The notes under the pieces were generated by a model. That model was given only the letters and a program-made list of their open reading frames with translations, was not told the DNA's origin and searched no databases. This document shows, in pieces, positions 22,820-58,300 of a stretch of DNA of 64,000 bases. Numbering within the stretch: the first letter of the stretch is position 1; each line of letters begins with the position of its first letter. The position numbers and the translations under genes are program-made. This DNA comes from Medicago truncatula (taxonomy: Eukaryota > Streptophyta > Magnoliopsida > Fabales > Fabaceae), in NCBI RefSeq assembly GCF_003473485.1, contig NC_053042.1, positions 11,366,501 through 11,430,500 of the forward strand. Reading direction: 5' to 3'.

Positions 22820-25325
22820 ATGTCATCATCACCAATTGCCACTCCTTCACCACCACCAACCACCGTCTCATCACCACCGTACGATCGAATCAAAGCCGTG
22901 AAAGAATTCGACGAAACAAAATCCGGCGTAAAAGGCTTAATCGACTCCGGAATCAAAACCATTCCATCTTTCTTCATCCATCCACCTGAAATCCTATCTG
23001 ACCTCACTCCACGATCAGATTTCCCCCAACCGGAAATCCCCACAATCGACCTCTCCGCCGTCCACCACTCCCGCGCCGCCGTGGTTGAACAGCTTCGTTC
23101 CGCCGCGAGTACAGTTGGATTCTTTCAAGTGATCAACCATGGAGTCGCGCCGGAATTGATGCGAAGTGTGATCGGTGCTATGAAGAAGTTTCATGAACAG
23201 CCTGCTGACGAGAGGAAGAAGGTGTACTGTAGGGAGATGGGAACTGGTGTTTCCTATATATCTAACGTTGATCTGTTCGCTTCTAAAGCTGCCAGCTGGC
23301 GTGACACGCTTCAGGTTCGAAAATTACCTACGAGAAAACAGTCATTGTGAGACATTGTTGCTTTAGTTTTTAAATAATTGAATTCGTAAGCACATTCTCG
23401 TGTCTATTTTGTTAGTCATTTTATGAACTTAACCAACGAAAAAACACATTGAGGACTAAGACCGAAATGGCTAAGAGTATGTTTGTTTAGAAAATAGCGA
23501 ATAGTTGATAAACTAGTTTACCGCGGATGAACTGAACTTATAACTTATAATAGATAACTGATATTTGATAAGTTAGCTGACTATTCAGTAGTAAAATTAA
23601 CAGTTGAACTAACTTTAAAATATGAAATGAAATGACATAAAAGTGACGGTTATAAGCAATAAGTTCAAAATCATGCCCTTGCCAAACAGACCCTAATAAA
23701 AAACACTTTTAGTGACTAATAAATTGAAATTTAAGATTAGACTCACTGTTGCATCTCACTAAAGTTAAACTAAGTGTGCATAGTGATAAATGAAAGTTGA
23801 AGTAAACATCAAAAGATGTCCATGAGAAAGTGAATTTTTTTTTGAAAATTCTGTTAAAGAAACATTTCTACAAAAAGCATGAATACTTTTAAAATTACAC
23901 GTCAAATGATTTTTATTTGTAAATTAATAAATTCAGTTGGAACAGTATTTTTCAATCATGTATTGCAAGAATGAGTTTATGTTGGTAAATTCTGTTTACT
24001 GATTGTTGCTTACTGCCCAGTTAGTTAATTATTTTCCAGTTGTTAGTAGTCAATGATTTTTATAGTTAATTCTGTTTTCTGATAGTTACTTTAATTGCAT
24101 CTTGAAAGTTTATCACTCTTTCAAGTTTTTAAGTTCTTCATGTTTTTCTTCTTTTCTTCATGCCTTCTTCTGATACGTTGATCATGTGTTACTCACGCAC
24201 TAAATAGGTGATTTTGATTAATTCATTTGTGCATAAATAGAAGTTAGTTTTATATGCAATCATCAATTCAGTCTTTCATAACAGTTTCAGTGATTAACAT
24301 GATCAACCCAATGGGACTAATGTGCTCGACAAATTCAAATTAAGAAATTATTTTAAAATTATAATTTTCAGAACCAAAATGATATTTCATTGTTATTTCA
24401 ATGGAATTTTGCAGATTAAGATGGGACCTGTCCCAGCGGAAGAGAAGGAGATTCCGGAGGTATGCAGGAAGGAGGTGATGGAGTGGGATAAAGAAGTGGT
24501 GCGTGTGGGAGATATTTTGCTTGGTTTGTTGAGTGAAGGGTTAGGGTTAGGTGAAGAAAGGCTCACAGAATTGGGTTTGTCGCAAGGGAGGGTGATGGTT
24601 GGCCACTATTACCCATTTTGCCCTCAGCCTAATCTTACTGTTGGACTCAATTCCCATGCAGATCCAGGGGCATTGACGGTATTGTTGCAGGATCATATTG
24701 GTGGCTTACAGGTTAGGACCCAACATGGTTGGATTAATGTAAAGCCTCTTGATGGAGCTTTGGTCATCAACATTGGAGATTTACTTCAGGTCAATTATAT
24801 TTTCTCTCTTATTTTTACTTTTTTTATTTTGTCTTTCCTTGTCTTCTCTTTTCGAGTAATGCTACGTAGTAGAAAACATTTTGCGCACGAACTTCACGAA
24901 TGTTCACATCAATTTTACATGGAAAGAAGAAAATTTATTGTGTTTTGATGGAAATCACAGGGGTAATGGCCAATGAGTGTTTTGTGATTGTGTCGTGCCT
25001 TTTCTTTTCGTAATGCCAAGCATTTTACTTTCTTTTTTTAATTTGGATTTCTCACATCCATAATTTTGTGTCTCAGATAATTTCGAACGAGGAGTATAAG
25101 AGTGCTGATCATCGTGTATTAGCCAATCCTTCCAACGAGCCACGAGTCTCGATTGCTGTTTTCCTCAACCCGGGTAATAGGGAGAAGCTCTTTGGTCCTT
25201 TACCAGAGCTAACATCAGCAGACAAGCCATCTCTTTATAGAGATTTCACGCTCAACGAATTCATGACAAGGTTCTTTAAGAAAGAGCTTGATGGTAAATC
25301 ATTGACTAATTTCTTCAGAAAGTGA
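22820..25325 (+). CDS. 2-oxoglutarate/Fe(II)-dependent dioxygenase, ACC oxidase homolog-like (copy A)
   Basis: Exons 22820-23314, 24415-24789 and 25077-25325 (495, 375, 249 nt) encode 372 residues. The N-terminal non-haem dioxygenase domain contains PTIDLSAV and GFFQVINHGV. The C-terminal 2OG-Fe(II) domain has the metal triad H246-x-D248 and H302 (SADHRVL) and the 2OG-binding R313-x-S315. Tyr230 lies in HYYPFCPQP. The family resembles plant '1-aminocyclopropane-1-carboxylate oxidase homolog' and desacetoxyvindoline 4-hydroxylase-like enzymes, which hydroxylate diverse specialised metabolites; the substrate cannot be inferred. A cytosolic location is expected, since no signal peptide is seen. 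The leader just before the ATG is C/A-rich and conserved in all three copies. AATAAA lies near 25435. It is the least disturbed copy, with introns of 1100 and 287 bp. Confidence 0.93.
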
Positions 25326-27302: not shown

Positions 27303-29369
27303 TAGAAGAGAAGTTGTGAAGAGAGAAATATGTAAGAGAGAATATGAGAAGAGAAATATGTGAGAAATATCCTTCAAAAAAAATATGTACGTTAGCTGAG
27401 CTACCCTACTCTCCTTTTGTCCATTCTACTCTACACAATCAAAATCAATCCACGTCACGTTGTCGAGTGTAGAATTCTGCTACTCAAACTCAACTCAATT
27501 ACTCAACTGCTTTTTTCTTTCTATAACTCTAAAAACTTCCACACACACAAGCATTCCCTTCATTCATTCATTCAACTCCCAACAATGTCATCATCACCGA
27601 TCGCCACCCACTCACCACCACCAACATACGACCGTGCGAAAGATGTGAAAGAATTCGATGAAACAAAATCCGACGTAAAAGGCTTAATCGACTTCGGAAT
27701 CAAAACCATTCCATCTTTCTTTATTCACCCACCCGAAACTCTATCCGATCTCACTCCACGATCAGATTTCCCCCAACCAGAAATTCCCACAATCGACCTC
27801 TCCGCCATAAACATTCCCGTGTCGCCGTGGTTGATCAGCTTCGTTCCACTGCAAGTACGGTGGGATTCTTTCAGGTGATCAACCATGGTGTAGCGCCAGA
27901 TTTGATGCGAAACGTTATTGGTGCTATGAAGAAGTTTCATGAACAGCCTGCGGAGGAGAGGAAGAAGGTGTACCGTAGGGAGATGAGAACTGGTGTTTCG
28001 TATATGTCAAATGTTGATCTTTTCGCTTCTAAAGCTCCCAGCTGGCGTGACACACTCCAGGTTCGAAAATTATTTATGAGAACAGTCACTTTGATCTCTA
28101 AATATGTGAGATGTTGTTGTTGTAGTTTTTAAATATATTAAAACCGGAAGCACATTCTCGTGTCTATTTTGTTAGTAATTTTATGAACTTAACCAACGAA
28201 AAAATATATTGAGGACTAAGACCGAAATGACTAAGAGTATGTTTGTTTAAAAAATAGCGAATAGTTGATATCTGATAAGTTAGCTGATTGAGGTTTGTAA
28301 TATTCAGTAAAATTAACAGTTGAACTAACTTTAAAATATGAAATGAAATGACATAAAAATGACGGTTAATTACCAAACACATCTAATTTGATCAAATGAA
28401 CTTACAAGACATGTTATAAGTTATAAGTTCAAAATCATGCCTCGCCAAACAGACCCTAATAAAAAGCACTTTTAGTGACTCATAAATTAAAATTTAAGAT
28501 TAGACTGACTAAAGTGAAACTAAGCGTGCACAGTGCATTAAATGAAAGTTGAAGTAAACTTCAAAAGATGTCCATGAGAAAGTGAAAAATGTTTGAAAAT
28601 TCTGTTAAATAAACATTTCTACAAAAAGCCTGAATACTTTTAAAATTACACGTCAAATGATTTTTATTTGTATATTAAAAAAATCAGTTGAAACAGTATT
28701 TTTCAATCATGTATTGCAAGAATGAGCTTATGTTGGTAAATTATGTTTACTGATTGTTGCTTACTGCTCAGTTAGTTAATTATTTTTTGGTCGTTAGTAG
28801 TCAATGATTTTTTTTGTGAATTATGTTTGTTGATAGTTACTTTAATTGCATCTTGAAAGTTTATCACTCTTCGAAAGTTCTTTAAGCTTTTATGTTTTTC
28901 TTCTTTTCTTGATGCCTTTCTTCTGATATGTTTGATATGTGTTATCACAAAGTAAATATGTGATTTTGACTCGGCTTAAATAAGTAAAAGGTCTCTGTAA
29001 ATTGGCGCGTTTTTTGTTTTAGTCCCTGCAAATTTTTTTCTTGCGAAACAACCCTTATAATTACCATACGTTTTGGAACTCATCCCTTCCGTCAGGTTCC
29101 GTGAAAAAAATGCTTTGCTGGCTAACAGACGCCTACGTGGCACATGCTGATATGGCAACTGATGTCAACTGGGTTAAGTAGAGGGACTAAAACCAAAAAC
29201 GTATTTTTACACAGGGATGTAATTAAAAAAATGTAAACATCAATTTTTGAATTTTAAAAACCACTCTTTCCTTCTTCTTCCTCTCTCTGATCTTTCATTC
29301 TTCTTTTTCTTCAATCCATCCATGTCCAAATTTCAATTGCATGCGCCCTAAAACCCATTTTCTTCAACA

Positions 29370-29807
29370 GTGTGTTCTCATTCCATAGGCAACTCATTTG
29401 ATAACTATTCTACACCTTCTCCACCACCTTCACCTTATAATTACTACACCAATTACTCTGATAACTATTTTAGTGGCAATTACTTTCCCGGTTATTATCC
29501 CGGTGGTGCTTACCCACCACCACCGTCGCCACACCATTTCTTTGAATGTATTGAAAGTTATGCTGCTGTTGGGCCTAGTGGACCGTCTGCGCCGCTTGAA
29601 TATTCATTCTCGTTTGATCCAGGGCCAAAAGGAGGTAAAATGGGCTTAGGAGCTGGACTAGCTGTTGGTGTTGCTGCTGGGGCGCTGGGTCGACTTGCTC
29701 TGGAAGAAGGGGTGAGGTATGAAGAGCGTGGTCTTGCGGATATGGTTGAGAGTGATCTTACTTCTGCGAGAGATGATTATGGAGATATGCATTACCAAGA
29801 TTATTGA
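29370..29807 (+). CDS. Chimeric ORF in Pack-MULE: SRC2/C2-domain protein tail
   Basis: The 145-residue frame starts in or just beyond the left TIR (MCSHSIGNSF). It continues into Pro/Tyr-rich sequence and a Gly/Ala-rich hydrophobic segment with MGLGAGLAVGVAAGALGRLA, then RYEERGLADMVESDL and a Tyr/Asp-rich tail. That order matches the C-terminal part of plant SRC2-like C2-domain proteins. The C2 domain itself is missing, so the original role (Ca-dependent membrane association) is not expected. A 3' UTR-like stretch with a (TG)n run follows. It is a captured fragment; whether it is expressed is unknown. It lies on the same strand as, and inside, intron 1 of the dioxygenase pseudogene. Confidence 0.7.
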   Translation: MCSHSIGNSFDNYSTPSPPPSPYNYYTNYSDNYFSGNYFPGYYPGGAYPPPPSPHHFFECIESYAAVGPSGPSAPLEYSFSFDPGPKGGKMGLGAGLAVGVAAGALGRLALEEGVRYEERGLADMVESDLTSARDDYGDMHYQDY

Positions 29808-30184
29808 GTTCTTTGTAGTTGGTGTTTGATAAGGTTTGGAGTTTCAAGGAGTGTTGTTTTGGCACATACAAAAAGATGTGTGTGTGTGTGTGATTGAATG
29901 CATATGTGTTGCTTTATTTGATGCTAGATGATAAAGAATGAAGTAAGAAAGCAAATGATTATCATGTGATGTGATGATTTGGAATTGTTCAACCAGTTAT
30001 ATTATGAAAATTAACGTTGGTTTTCTATTTTAGTGTGGTTAGTGTATTCTGTGTTTTGTTCATGATTTCTCATAGATCTTTGTATAATGGCAAATTAGTT
30101 TGCAGCATAAGTCTGTTCATGATCTTCCTCATTGTTGTGTGATGTTTCCCTTTTAGTGTTATATTTATGCCTAATTTATCTGAT

Positions 30185-30373
30185 GAGGAATGCTAACAAC
30201 ACTCTCTTTTGAGCACTCTTTCTAGCACTCACTCTTTTATTGGGTGAAATCAATGTATGTCCCACCACTTTATGTGGGTTCCATTTCCAAAGTGTAGGTC
30301 CTACATTGAATTCACCAATAAAAGAGTGAGTGCTAGAGAGAGTGCTCAAAAGAGAGTGTTGCTAGCATTCCTC
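30185..30373. mobile_element. MITE (189 bp) nested in the Pack-MULE
   Basis: The ends GAGGAATGCTA and TAGCATTCCTC lead into long inverted arms that share CACTCTCTTTTGAGCACTCT-type sequence. A perfect 10-bp duplication TTTATCTGAT (30175-30184 and 30374-30383) flanks it. It is non-coding and of MULE type by target-duplication length. It inserted after, or travelled with, the captured segment. Confidence 0.88.
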
Positions 30374-30633
30374 TTTATCTGATATGAGTACAAGGCTATG
30401 TTACCTTTTCATAAATTAACCTAGTGAAAGTGAACCCATATGGCATTGTTTTCCTTTCAAAGGTGTGGCATGTTGAAGAATTTAAGGTTCTTTCGATGAT
30501 TGTTTGTTAATCATTTCAACTGTCCACAAGTTTATTGAGAACTTAGTTGTGGTGCTTATATCGTTGCTTTATTTATCAAATATTTGATCAGCTGGGGTGT
30601 GTAGTGACTTTTTAGCATTGATAATTTGAATTT

Positions 30634-30684
30634 GGCTTAAATAAGGAAAAGGGCCCTGTAAGTTGGTGCATTTTAGGGTTTTAG
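30634..30684 (+). repeat. Extra internal terminus of the Pack-MULE family
   Basis: GGCTTAAATAAGGAAAAGG followed by CCCTGTAAGTTGG repeats the outermost 50 bp of the left TIR in the same orientation, but lies inside the element just before the right TIR. Together with the true right end it would delimit a 502-bp mini-element (30634-31135). Confidence 0.7.
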
Positions 30685-32289
30685 GGAATTGATGAGTTGC
30701 CTAATATGATGATTGAGAAATGGAATGAGAAGACATGGTTGAAGGAAAAGGGTTTTAGGGCGCATGCAATTGAAAGTTGGATATGGAAGGATTGAAGAAG
30801 AAGAAGAAGAATGAAAGATCAAAGAGATGAAGAAGAAGGAAAGAGTTTTTTTAAAATTCAAAAATTGATGTTTACGTTTTTTTCATTACATCCCTGTGTA
30901 AAAATTCTTTTTTGGTTTTAGTCCTTCTACTTAACCCAGTTGGCACCAGTTGCCATACCATCATGTGCCACGTAGGCGTCCGTTAGTCAGCAAACCATTT
31001 TTTTCACGGAACCTGACGGCAGGGACGAGTTCCAAAATGTTTGGTAATTACAAGGGCTGTTTCGCAAGAAAAAAACTTACAGGGACTAAAACGAAAAACG
31101 CGCCAACTTACAGGGACCTTTTACTTATTTAAGCCTTTTGATTCATTCATTTTTGCATAAATAGAAGTTAGTTTTATAGACAACCATCAATTTAGTTTCT
31201 AAAATTGCACGAACAAACAAATTGTTTGAAATTAAAAATCCTCAATTTGATCACTCTTTCATAACAATTTCAGTGATTAACATGATCAACCCAATGGGAC
31301 TAATGTGAATTATTGATCTTCTACAATTTTCAGAATCAAATTGGTATTTGATCATTATTTCAATGGAATTTTGCAAATTAAGATGGGACCCGTCCCAGCG
31401 AAAGCGAAGGAGATTCCTGAGGTATGCACGAAGGAGGTGATGGAGTGGGATAAAGAAGTGGTGCGTGTGGGAGATATTTTGCTGGGCTTGTTGAGTGAAG
31501 GGTTAGGATTAGGGGAAGAAAGGCTCACGGAATTGGGTTTGTTGAGAGGGAGGGTGATGGTTGGCCACTATTACCCATTTTGCCCTCAGCCTAATCTTAC
31601 TGTTGGACTCAATTCCCATGCAGATCCAGGGGCACTGACATTATTGTTGCAGGATCATATTGGTGGCTTACAAGTTAGGACCCAACATGGTTGGATTAAT
31701 GTCGAGCCTCTTGGTGGAGCTTTGGTCATCAACATTGGAGATTTACTTCAGATCAATTATATTTTCTTTCTCTTATGTTTACTTTTTTTATTTTGTCTTT
31801 CCTTGTCTTTTCTTTTCGAGTAACGCTACGTAGTACAAAACATTTTGCGCACGAACTTCACGAATGTTCACATCAATTTTACAAGGAAAGAAGAAAATTT
31901 GTTGTGTATTGATGGAAATCATAGGGGTAATGGTCAATGAGTGTCTTGTGGTTGTGTCGTGCCTTTTCTTTTCGTAATGCCAAGCATTTTACTTTCTTTT
32001 TTTAATTTGGATTTCTCACATCCATAATTTTGTGTCTCAGATAATTTCAAACGAGGAGTATAAGAGTGCTGATCATCGTGTATTAGCCAATCCTTCCAAC
32101 GAGCCACAAGTCTCGATTGCTGTTTTCCTCAACCCGGGTACTAGGGAGAAGCTCTTTGGTCCTTTACCATAGCTAACGTCAGCAGAGAAGCCATCTCTTT
32201 ATAGAGATTTCACGCTCAACGAATTCATGACAAGGTTTTTGAAAAAAGAGCTTGATGGTAAATCATTGACTAATATCTTCAGAAAGTGA

Positions 32290-36400: not shown

Positions 36401-39400
36401 GAAACTTAAGATTACAGGTTACAAGAGGATGAGAGAGCTTCGATCTGTACAGAAGGATGAAAGAGCATCGAGAAAACAGCTAGAAATCAAGCAAAATCAA
36501 CGAAAACAACGCCACCGGAGCTTCACCGGAGAGTTGGTAAATCACCGGAAAAAAGCGGGCGAGGAGAGAGAAGAGCATGAGAGTTTGTGATGAGAGAAGA
36601 GCATGAGAGTTTGTGATGAAGGAGTTATGAATTTTTAGGTTCAAATTCTATAAAGATGATTTCGAGGATTTTCGGTAACACAATCACTATTGATTTTGGA
36701 TTTAGGAGAAGAATTGAAGAACGGTGATGGTTCTTCTTCTCCCAAAGGTTTCAAAACAAATCACCTGCCATCCTTTTTCAATTCCTTTTTTTCTTTGTTT
36801 TTCTTTTTGTTTTCAATTTTTTTTATTTTTTTAATTCAATATATACACGCATGGCATTTTAGTTTTTAAAAAAATCAATAATTATACACGTGGCATGCCA
36901 CTTAAGCGTTGACTCGGTCAAAATTGACCAAAAGGATCAAAGATGTAAAAGGGTTAAATCTTAGGGGGCCAAAATTGTAGTTTTTGTACTTAAGGGACCA
37001 AAATTGCAAGTTTTTGAAAGTTAAGGGGGAAAAAGTGCACTTTAGCCTAAAAAAAAATGCTATAAGTTAGTAAAAATAAGCTATAAGTTTATGAAAAAAA
37101 TGATGGTTAACAAATGGATAATGATCAGTGGACATCCTTTTTTCCTACCACTTCTTGTACACTCACATGTGGCACTGGGACCCACACTCTACTTTACATT
37201 CTCTTCTCCAGTTCTCCATTCTCTCTCAACACAAACACGCAGATCTCTGTCTTCTCTCACCACCACACGCCGCCTGTCACCGACGTCTACACCGCCGTTC
37301 ACACTCTCCTCTGCAACTTTTTTTTGTTTTATTTCTTCCTCTTTCTTTCTGCACCTTTCCCCTCCGACGATTACTTTCCTTTCACCACCATCGTCCTTCA
37401 TCACTGGTCTCCTCCACCACCGACCACCACCAAAACCCAAAAAAAAATAGAAAACACTACCTCTTAAAATAGCAAGAAGCTCACAGATCATAAGGAAAAA
37501 CATGCAGATCTGAGATAAAAAAACGCAGATTTGAACATAAAAACGCAAATCTGCAAAACAACAAGACCAAAATGCACGGTGGTGGTGGTGGTGGACAACG
37601 CCGGTGAGAGAGTGAGAGAGACAGAAAGATGATGATCAAAATGCACGGTGGTGGTGGTGGACAACGCCGATGAGAGAGTGAGAGAGATAGAAAGATGATG
37701 ATGATGGTGGCAAAGAAACGGTGCACGTGATGGTGGTGATGTTGGACCGGATCTGAAACGGCGGCGTGTGATGGTGTTCTGACCGGTGATGGAAAAACGG
37801 TGGTAGTGAAAAAGGGAATGGGTGATGATGATGGTGGTGGTGGTGGGAGCGGCGGCGGCCGTCAGTCAGAGAAAGGGGGTGAAGGAAGAGAGAAGAGAGA
37901 GTGAGAGACGAAGTTGGGGAATCTGTGGGGGCCACGCTGCCAAATGTCACATTTTTGTGTGGTGGTCAAGAAGATGTATGCCACATGGAGTGGTTCATCT
38001 ATCACTACTCTAACAAATAGATCTTTTTTAGTCAAATTTTAAGACATAAGTTATAAGCTCAAAATGATGTCTTGTGAAACAGACCCTAATATAATAAAAA
38101 TTACTTTAAGTGACTAAGTGTGCACTATGCACTAAATGAAAGTTGAAGTAAACTTTTTTTCTTTTAGAAGAAACTAAACTAATCCACTCAAATTAACATC
38201 GGGAAGAATCGAATAAATTAATATCGGAAAGAATCGAACATGAGACTTTGAGGAGGATCACACTCTTAAATCGCAAGTCAATACCATCAGACCAACTCAA
38301 GTGGGTTAAAAGTTGAAGAAAACTTGAAAAGATTGTCCATGAGAAAGTGATAAAAAAAAATGAAAATTCTGTTAACTAATCATTTCTACATAAAGCCTGA
38401 ATAATTTCAAAATTACATGTCAAATAATTTTTATTTGTAAATTAAAAAGTGCAGTTGGAACAGTATTTTTCAATCATGTATTGCAAGAATGAGTTTATCT
38501 TAGTCAATTCTGTTTACTGATTGTTACTTACTGATTCAGTTAGTTTTATTTTTTATTTTTTTAAGAAAACTGATTCAGTTAGTTAATTGTTTTTTGGTCG
38601 TTAGAAGTCAATGATTTTTATAGTTAATTCTGTTTGTTGATAGTTACTTTAATTGCATCTTGAAATTTATCACTCTTTCAAGTTCTTCAAGCTCTTCATG
38701 TTTTTCTTCTTTTCTTCATGTCTTCTTCTGATACGTTGATCATGTGTTACTCACACACTAAATAGGTGATTTTGATTAATTCATTTGTGCATAAATAGAA
38801 GTTAGTTTTATATGCAATCATCAATTCAGTCTTTCATAACAGTTTCAGTGATTAACATAATCAACCCAACAACACTAATGTGCTCGACCAATTCAAATTA
38901 AGAAATTAATCTAAATTTACAATTTTTAGAACCAAAATGGTATTTCATCATTATTTCAATGGAATTTCGCAGATTAGGATGGGACCTGTCCCAACGGAAG
39001 AGAAGGAGATTCCGGAGGTATGCAGGAAGGAGGTGATGGAGTGGGATAAAGAAGTGGTGTGTGTGGGAGATATTTTGCTTGGTTTGTTGAGTGAAGGGTT
39101 AGGATTAGGTGAAGAAAGGTTCACAGAATTGGGTTTGTCTCAAGGGAGGGTGATGGTTGGCAACTATTACCCATTTTGCCCTCAGCCTAATCTTACTGTT
39201 GGACTCAATTCCCATGCAGATCCAGGGGCATTGACGGTATTGTTGCAGGATCATATTGGTGGCTTACAGGTTAGGACCCAACATGGTTGGATTGATGTAA
39301 AACCCCTTGATGGAGCTTTGGTCATTAACATTGGAGATTTACTTCAGGTCAATTATATTTTCTTTCTCTCTATTTTTTTTTTGTCTTTTTTTAAACAACA

Positions 39401-56203: not shown

Positions 56204-58300
56204 CTAGAAGTAATTATTGGAAAATGTTTTGCATTTCTATAGTAATATTGCAAAAAAAAAATATAGAGTGTTATGCAAAGTGGGAAATTTTTTTCTCTCT
56301 CATATTTTCTCATGTGTCACGTGAGAGAGTTCATATTTCCTGCAAAGGCAGAAGTTAAAAATGAGATGTACCAGTTCCTTTGTATTTATCAGATAAAAAA
56401 TTAAATCATTTGTATTTAACTATTGCAACCTAAAAAAAAAATAAAATTATTGTTATGTTCATATTTTTTTTATGTTGAGGTTAGTTCATTATAGAAAACT
56501 CTAAGAAACTCTTCTAAACCAAATTTAAGAAAACCAATTGTGAATAACTTTAGACTTTCTCAACCTGGTAAGCACATACACTAAAGCTAATTCACTAGAC
56601 ACAAATCGATATTAAATTCAATTGAAACATAGACTTGCTACTATAAGAAGTACGAAGAAGAAAAGAAGGTATATACTAATGTGATTGGAGTTGTGCACTG
56701 ACTCAAGTGTCAAGATGAATGATATATTGATAAGATTGGGAAATGGAAATTATTTTCAACCAGGTTGAAAATATAGAAAATTTAGTTAACAATTTGGTTG
56801 CAATCTGATGAATGAAGAGAGAAAAATGTTGATCTGAGGTATAAAATGTTGCAACTACTTAGTTACAGTGTCGTTACTGAAAAAAGAAAATTTTAGACAC
56901 ATACCCTTGTTTCTGCCAGCTCAGTTGAGGAAGTTAGAAAATATTTTTACACATCATGTGCTTTTCTTATGTTATAACATTGTACAATCATCAAATGATA
57001 TGTACTTAATGGTCATTGGCTTATTTTTTGGTAAATAATGGTCATTGGTTTGTTAAAGATAAACTTGCTGCTCCGAATTCGATGAAAAATCACACCAATA
57101 ACAAACTTGATGTGTGAAGCAAGTGATAATCAGGCAACCAAAACAAAGTATATGGAACAATTTTAAACACAAGCCAAAAGTAGAAAACAGCGAGAGAGAA
57201 AAGAAGAGAGAACACAAAAGAATTTGTTGACCTAGTTCGGTCCAAATTGACCTAGTCTGGGGGAGAGAGCAGTCATCCGTTTCACTATATGATGAGTAAC
57301 TTTACAAAAGAGATATCAATGGGTTACAAGAATAAGTCTCCCGCCTAATTCTACCCAAACCCCCAATCTCTTCGCGTAACCAAGAGACTCAATCATAATA
57401 GTGTTTCCCAAGGTGAATCAACCCTCAAACCCTAGTAATTGTTGCCAAGAATCAAACTCTATACAAACCCTAGTTTTGTTGTTGTCTTTCTAAACCATTG
57501 TTTCAGCCCCCTCTATCTCAAGGTTTACACTGATACAATGTCTATATTTATAGTAAAAGCATCCCTCATAAATTGGAACCAAATCAGACCCATAAAAATA
57601 CGTTTTATTTTTATTCTTCTGCGCGAAATCGTGCTCCGATTTTGCTAGATCGTGCTCCAATTTTTTACAAATGAAAGTGTCAATTCTGCTCCAAAAATCA
57701 TACTTCGATTTCTCCAAATCGAACTCCAATTTTGACAACTTCAGCAAACTCAAATTCTCCAAATTTGAGTCAATTTCACAACACTTACTTTAATTTACTT
57801 ATTTCTTTCTCGAGCAGTAAGTACCAAATTAACTCCTGGTGAATACATTATGTCCTTTAACCGAAGGTAAACACCATACAAATATATATCACTAACCACA
57901 AACATTCATGGTATTAATTTCATAGAAAGTATAACAACTAGACAAACTACCATTCTGACTTTGCTTCTTATATATTTTCTTTGAATCACTTATACAAAAG
58001 ATCAATGGGACAAATTGTTACTATTGATTATTATAAAAACATAACATCAAAGAAATAATCTCTTTTCAAAACTCTCTCCACCACTCATTTTTTTTTATTA
58101 ACTTAAATCATGACGGATCTCACATTTTTAGAAATAGATTCCGTTCAAAATAGTGGGTCATACAATAATTTCATCCAATGAATGTTGAAGAAATTATTGA
58201 AAAGAGAGTGTCTCTAACATTCCTCAAACATCAAATGATTTTGTACATAACCAACTTGGTTATGTCAACCATTCATTATGATCAAACACTGGTATCATAG
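56204..58300. other. Intergenic region with LTR-like and MITE-like remnants
   Basis: About 57180-57830 looks like a solo-LTR-type repeat: an AGTTCGGTCC motif, a CTATATTTATAG tract, and fairly even base composition compared with its surroundings. The termini were not fixed. About 58060-58225 resembles the MITE family seen at 30185-30373 (CTCTTTTCAAAACTCTCTCC and AAAAGAGAGTGTCTCTAACA). No gene was seen. Confidence 0.35.

Follow-up and report, generated by a model that had tools for sequence, protein, structure and literature searches.

A Pack-MULE in the intron of a dioxygenase gene copy

The window analyzed here is a 64,000-nt stretch of the Medicago truncatula genome (C1:11366501-11430500; C1 to C8 denote contigs), and the searches described below covered the 430-Mb genome in its 42 contigs. 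An intron of a dioxygenase gene copy in this window holds a 2,163-bp Pack-MULE, that is, a Mutator-like element (MULE) carrying a piece of another gene, at positions 28973-31135 (E1). Its terminal inverted repeats (TIRs) at 28973-29386 and 30720-31135 are 414 and 416 bases long with 91% identity and, in our reading of a gapped alignment, reach to ~29397 and ~30692. The element is bounded by a target duplication, TTTTGACTC and TTTTGATTC, with 8/9 identical positions, and its flanks join onto uninterrupted introns in two paralogous genes of the window (at about 24212-24217 and 38770-38775), which are the empty sites. The exon downstream of E1 matches 2OG-FeII_Oxy (PF03171). A preliminary description of this DNA had proposed an insertion into a dioxygenase intron from long TIRs, a target duplication and an empty site, and both the insertion and its location are borne out by these data. 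E1 is a genuine Pack-MULE insertion; chance is excluded because the donor match of its cargo has an E value of 2e-260 and the terminus pattern gives 266 matches genome-wide versus 0 for the reversed control.

No transposase was found inside E1 and, apart from a frame of 145 codons, no open reading frame (ORF) in it reaches 100 amino acids. Its interior is accounted for by donor sequence, an insertion resembling a miniature inverted-repeat transposable element (MITE), and the TIRs, and the features are as follows (window positions).

28964-28972, no strand: left target duplication TTTTGACTC, 8/9 identical to 31136-31144
28973-29397, plus strand: left TIR, whose inner part (~29250-29397) consists of the CT-rich leader and start box belonging to the second gene of the family; the inner end is our reading
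29370-29807, plus strand: 145-codon open frame whose first codons come from the TIR and are followed by the SRC2-like tail; first codon GTG here, ATG in copy E2
29408-30184, plus strand: captured fragment, part 1, donor 3' coding end and start of the 3' flank (C3:34923292-34924116), 84%
30185-30373, no strand: younger inverted-repeat (MITE-like) insertion with the 10-bp direct repeat TTTATCTGAT at its flanks
30376-30632, plus strand: captured fragment, part 2, donor 3' flank (C3:34924109-34924334), 80%
30634-30684, plus strand: internal MULE terminus of ~51 bp in left-end orientation, abutting the donor junction
30692-31135, minus strand: right TIR, start box MSSHSISQSSY followed by a stop, facing inward; the inner end is our reading
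31136-31144, no strand: right target duplication TTTTGATTC

The cargo and its donor gene

The two parts of the cargo match C3:34923292-34924334 and represent the 3' coding end and the 3' flank of a C2-domain (SRC2-like) gene on C3. In that gene the frame continues from the C2 domain (PF00168, E = 6.6e-14) into the tail seen in the cargo. Within 8 kb around this gene the best match to a MULE terminus has 6 mismatches in 19; therefore, the C3 gene is the donor and not a member of the family. The capture of an SRC2/C2-type tail had been proposed beforehand, on the understanding that it would fall if no parental gene existed or if the full gene always came with these TIRs. The full copy on C3, which aligns over 29408-30632 in two parts and has its own 3' flank without MULE termini, upholds that proposal. 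Both the donor and copy E5 (see below) lack the insertion at 30185-30373 that interrupts the cargo.

Two related stretches were seen elsewhere. A sequence 69% similar to the MITE-like insertion lies at window 58051-58226, and a second copy of the donor 3' flank, 76% similar, lies ~1 kb downstream of the donor (L026:5556-6010).

The start box as a feature of the TIR family

The first codons of the 145-codon frame fall in a short sequence, ATGTCTTCTCATTCCATNTCTC, which we call the start box. With up to 3 mismatches it occurs at 132 places in the genome (the first 100 or so of which were listed), versus 30 for the reversed control. We assembled a set of 15 complete elements, namely E1, its copy E2 and 13 others, selected from the best TIR matches. 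The target duplication is exact (9/9) in 11 of the 15 as cut, E2 among them, and in our reading two further elements become exact if one end is shifted by 1-2 bases. Eight of the 15 carry the start box at both ends (up to 3 mismatches), with an ATG at 15 of these 16 ends and a GTG at the left end of E1. Locus L041 showed a single end only. A receptor kinase fragment (kinase domain, E = 3e-29) makes up the cargo of six of the eight, its best match outside the elements being a 1,220-aa frame at C8:37327898 (89%), so that family members with the same TIR and different cargo, which the preliminary description had recommended counting, do exist. The longest TIR-start frames of these six run antisense to the kinase piece and span 81 codons in five of them and 35 in one. 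The cargo of L035 looks by eye like an S-locus type receptor, and its Pfam score is 16.6 bits against a cut-off of 24. Judged from these comparisons, the start box belongs to the TIR family. A derivation of the first codons from the donor is ruled out, as the TIR sequence is present in elements with other cargo.

A second gene of a large element as the likely source of the start box

A 5,841-bp element at C1:35727732-35733572 has the same termini as E1 and a 9/9 target duplication, TTAATAAAA. Its two long frames match DBD_Tnp_Mut, MULE and SWIM above the cut-offs, which suggests a MURA-type, related autonomous MULE. At its right end, on the opposite strand, the box reads MSSNSITQPSSNGLPMCGCNKIMRMFISNSHENPKRRYWKC and is followed, past a likely intron, by CKLYIWDDE; the product of this second gene (ORF2) resembles the GRF zinc ribbon (PF06839). 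The TIRs of the large element itself are 206 bp long. Its right end matches both TIRs of E1 over 415-430 bp at 69-71%, whereas its left end does so over 171 bp only, and since only the right end matches at full length, both Pack-MULE TIRs derive from the ORF2 end. The start box thus likely represents the first codons of ORF2, a second gene convergent with the transposase. ORF2 is also present at C2:23396536-23402400.

We then compared the genomic positions of such partner genes with 143 matches to the transposase core, counting neighbours within 8 kb and using random placement as the control. Exon 2 of ORF2 has 20 matches in the genome, 10 of them with a transposase neighbour, and all 10 pairs are convergent (random placement: mean 0.10, at most 2 in 2,000 trials). 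Independently of this, the Pfam GRF model has 94 matches, 28 of them with a transposase neighbour, and again every pair (28/28) is convergent (random mean 0.47, at most 4). No ORF2 match stands within 8 kb of any of these 28, and a convergent GRF or ORF2 neighbour is thus present at 38 of the 137 merged transposase loci. The transposases in many pairs are only 35-42% alike. As scoring was confined to the best candidates, all of these counts are minimum values. It is the Pfam model that suggests a kinship of the 28 GRF genes with ORF2.

Several partner-gene matches have unusual arrangements. At C4:14260271-14260788 two inverted matches to ORF2 exon 2 stand face to face within ~500 bp, as if a TIR had expanded over the greater part of that gene. 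At C3:5707289-5716794 two family termini 9.5 kb apart are accompanied by an ORF2 match, with no transposase match near. GRF matches also recur at regular steps, three at 720 bp (C5:17487121-17488650) and three at ~9.76 kb (C3:14418326-14437926), which look like tandem repeats.

Copies of the cargo and the fusion frame

The same cargo is present at four loci besides E1, as follows.

E2, C1:36.77 Mb (C1:36771587-36773761): 97% alike to E1 over the full length; target duplication 9/9
E3, C7:44.41 Mb: 15,392 bp between termini, including one insertion of ~11.9 kb close to where the fusion starts and two of smaller size
E4, C3:28.72 Mb: match stops at element position 726
E5, C5:42.47 Mb: rearranged

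The five loci have their own flanks, which, together with the likeness of E1 and E2, speaks for past movement only. The first codon of the fusion is ATG in E2, E3 and E4, GTG in E1 (window 29370) and ATC in E5. GTG is not a normal plant start codon. The preliminary description had the frame begin with MCSHSIGNSF in or next to the TIR: the codon is indeed within the TIR and reads ATG in three copies, but the residue read there as M is encoded by GTG in E1, and an ATG-started fusion in the window copy is therefore ruled out.

A 16-base deletion after the start box is common to E1, E2 and E3. E4 and E5 keep the 16 bases and are out of frame, the ATG frame of E4 stopping after 15 codons, which rules out that capture itself made the frame. 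Because these two copies hold the additional bases, the open fusion is younger than the capture and arose through a deletion in the line of E1, E2 and E3. The frame of E3 is split by the ~11.9-kb insertion. The chimeric ORF that had been suggested for the window is thus found as a 145-codon, ATG-started fusion in E2, but not in E1, and it was not created by the capture. With its GTG, E1 would not qualify as a new chimeric protein-coding gene; E2 has the frame, which might be transcribed and translated. Among E1-E3 there are 17 changed codons (half of the summed pairwise differences), 7 of them synonymous, versus an expected 93/393 (about 24%; binomial p = 0.08), and there is no clear selection on the fusion frame. 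Compared with the donor by the NG86 (Nei-Gojobori) method, the synonymous divergence (dS) is 0.27-0.33 and the nonsynonymous divergence (dN) 0.09-0.11.

Capture junctions

At the far junction, the donor sequence ends with TTGATAATTTGAATT and is followed by a MULE terminus, GGCTTAAATAAGG, for ~51 bp and then by the right TIR. The first 36 bases of this internal terminus are identical to the left end at 31 of 36 positions, the best value elsewhere in the cargo being 19/36; it is also present in E5 and is among the hits of the terminus search in E1, E2 and E3. The left junction contains a 13-bp repeat at 29400 and 29460 (12/13 alike). Since a MULE terminus still stands exactly at the far donor junction, we propose that two MULEs flanked the donor piece.

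The host gene copy

Exon 1 of the host dioxygenase copy (window 27396-28132) is apparently split over two frames, and relative to the paralog there is a one-base gap near 27808. This copy may be a pseudogene.

Discussion

We interpret E1 as a non-autonomous Pack-MULE with two-gene autonomous kin, whose TIRs were copied from the ORF2 end, whose cargo was captured between two MULEs and whose frame was made by a later deletion, and we assign this reading a probability of about 0.8. The autonomous members would encode a MURA-type transposase and, convergently on the opposite strand, a small GRF-like zinc-ribbon gene, ORF2. The alignment shows both Pack-MULE TIRs to be copies of the ORF2 end, so that each has a CT-rich leader and the first ORF2 codons facing inward. 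One MULE may have inserted in the 3' flank of the donor, with a second end located within the gene; the new element would then have taken its ends from the outer side of each MULE, and the inner ends would have been lost. The capture left one of the TIRs fused to the 3' coding end and the 3' flank of the SRC2-like C2 gene. As the comparison of copies shows, the start codon of the TIR later came into frame with the tail through the 16-base deletion, and the product is a possible chimeric gene composed of the TIR leader, an ATG, the SRC2-like tail, a stop and the 3' flank of the donor. E2 has kept the frame intact, the ATG of E1 has changed to GTG, and the frame of E3 is split by its large insertion.

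Several observations weigh against this reading. The start box is not at both ends (up to 3 mismatches) in 7 of the 15 complete elements, and 66 of the 94 GRF matches and 10 of the 20 matches to ORF2 are more than 8 kb from any transposase match. The GRF score of ORF2 is 18.9 bits with the inferred splice and 22.8 with a plain exon join, both under the cut-off of 25.9, so that we call ORF2 no more than GRF-like. E2 alone among the five cargo loci has an intact ATG-started fusion, its start is preceded by upstream ATGs at -48 and -29, and the motif TATA[AT]A is absent from all 7 TIR ends examined. Finally, the two-MULE capture is suggested by one junction common to the copies, and the left junction has multiple readings.

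A rival reading, which we regard as quite probable, is that E1 is an ordinary Pack-MULE whose fusion frame came about by chance through drift and has no role, the start box being only family sequence. The loss of the start in E1 and E5, the broken frames of E3 and E4, the lack of clear selection among E1-E3 and the antisense frames in the six kinase-carrying elements all agree with this, but E2 has kept all 145 codons, and the origin of the start box would be left unexplained, for which the comparison with ORF2 accounts. A more specific question is how the cargo was taken up. Template switching during gap repair within one MULE, instead of capture by two neighbouring MULEs, is a possibility that we regard with some doubt: the 13-bp repeat at the left junction resembles slipped copying and microhomology is reported at the breakpoints of animal Pack-TIRs (PMC8277862), but the internal piece starts at the first base of the MULE terminus against the donor, as after an insertion.

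Two further explanations concern the origin of the genes involved. That the GRF-like gene was itself captured from the host and plays no working part in the autonomous element seems unlikely; its profile score is weak and additional MULE ORFs are often assumed to be host-derived, as stated in a passage of PMC6446971, but the convergent placement is constant in 38/38 pairs, including many with such divergent transposases. The reverse direction, in which the C3 gene would derive from the element, is close to inconceivable: no supporting point was found in these data, and the C2 domain and the remainder of the frame, both missing from the elements, are present in the C3 gene, which has no terminus better than the one noted above in its surroundings.

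Pack-MULEs, reportedly treated by Jiang et al. in 2004, are known from rice, Arabidopsis, Lotus and melon. They are also mentioned in a section of PMC2528002. Like them, E1 has long TIRs, a 9-bp target duplication, a captured gene fragment, several copies and no transposase inside; unlike them, it has at both ends a TIR that carries the leader and opening codons of the autonomous element's second gene. MuDR of maize has a convergent gene arrangement with promoters in the TIRs. Its two genes are mudrA and mudrB, according to passages of PMC4486113 and PMC6446971. The autonomous element described here likewise has two genes, the second convergent with the transposase, but that second gene resembles the GRF zinc ribbon. 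The passage of PMC6446971 on additional MULE ORFs names mudrB, mutB, vanB and vanC, and GRF is not mentioned in that passage. MuTAnT/AutoMuTAnT of Medicago truncatula, as a section of PMC4486113 describes it, is also a MULE family, comprising short foldback-like members and a single autonomous element, but it differs in its terminal sequence GGGGTTTGCTAGAACA, its one ORF and its TA-repeat targets. For Pack-CACTA elements a capture is described in which host DNA comes to lie between the outer ends of two neighbouring elements, whose inner ends are lost (PMC8616336); we infer the same outer-end capture here for a MULE from one preserved terminus. The animal Pack-TIRs and the FoSTeST model are similar to E1 in multicopy gene carriage, fold-back TIRs and short repeats at the breakpoints, but no internally preserved terminus is described for them in the portion of PMC8277862 concerned. 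A literature search of one open-access collection returned no paper linking Pack-MULEs with SRC2, none, judged by title, tying the GRF zinc ribbon to Mutator-like elements or transposons, and, on start codons and chimeric genes in Pack-MULE TIRs, papers of which PMC2528002 proved unrelated. E1 is thus a Pack-MULE with a known kind of history, and the source of its start codon is the unusual part; a TIR that donates the start, together with a GRF partner gene, looks new among the known Pack-MULEs.

How Pack-MULEs make new genes is debated. We lean slightly towards a broader view in which a large MULE group has a conserved convergent GRF-like gene, one family of it copied the 5' end of this gene into both TIRs, and its Pack-MULEs act as start-codon donors, with captured fragments lying between two inward-facing starts and fusions like that of E2 arising through small deletions. 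If so, leader and start codon would be borne by the TIR, and a capture would need only a 3' gene end and the right frame to become readable, an idea that can be tested copy by copy within one genome. The preserved terminus at the donor junction is a rare direct trace of the uptake of a gene fragment, and for the second gene of two-gene MULEs, the role of which is unsolved, a conserved GRF-like partner would supply a candidate.

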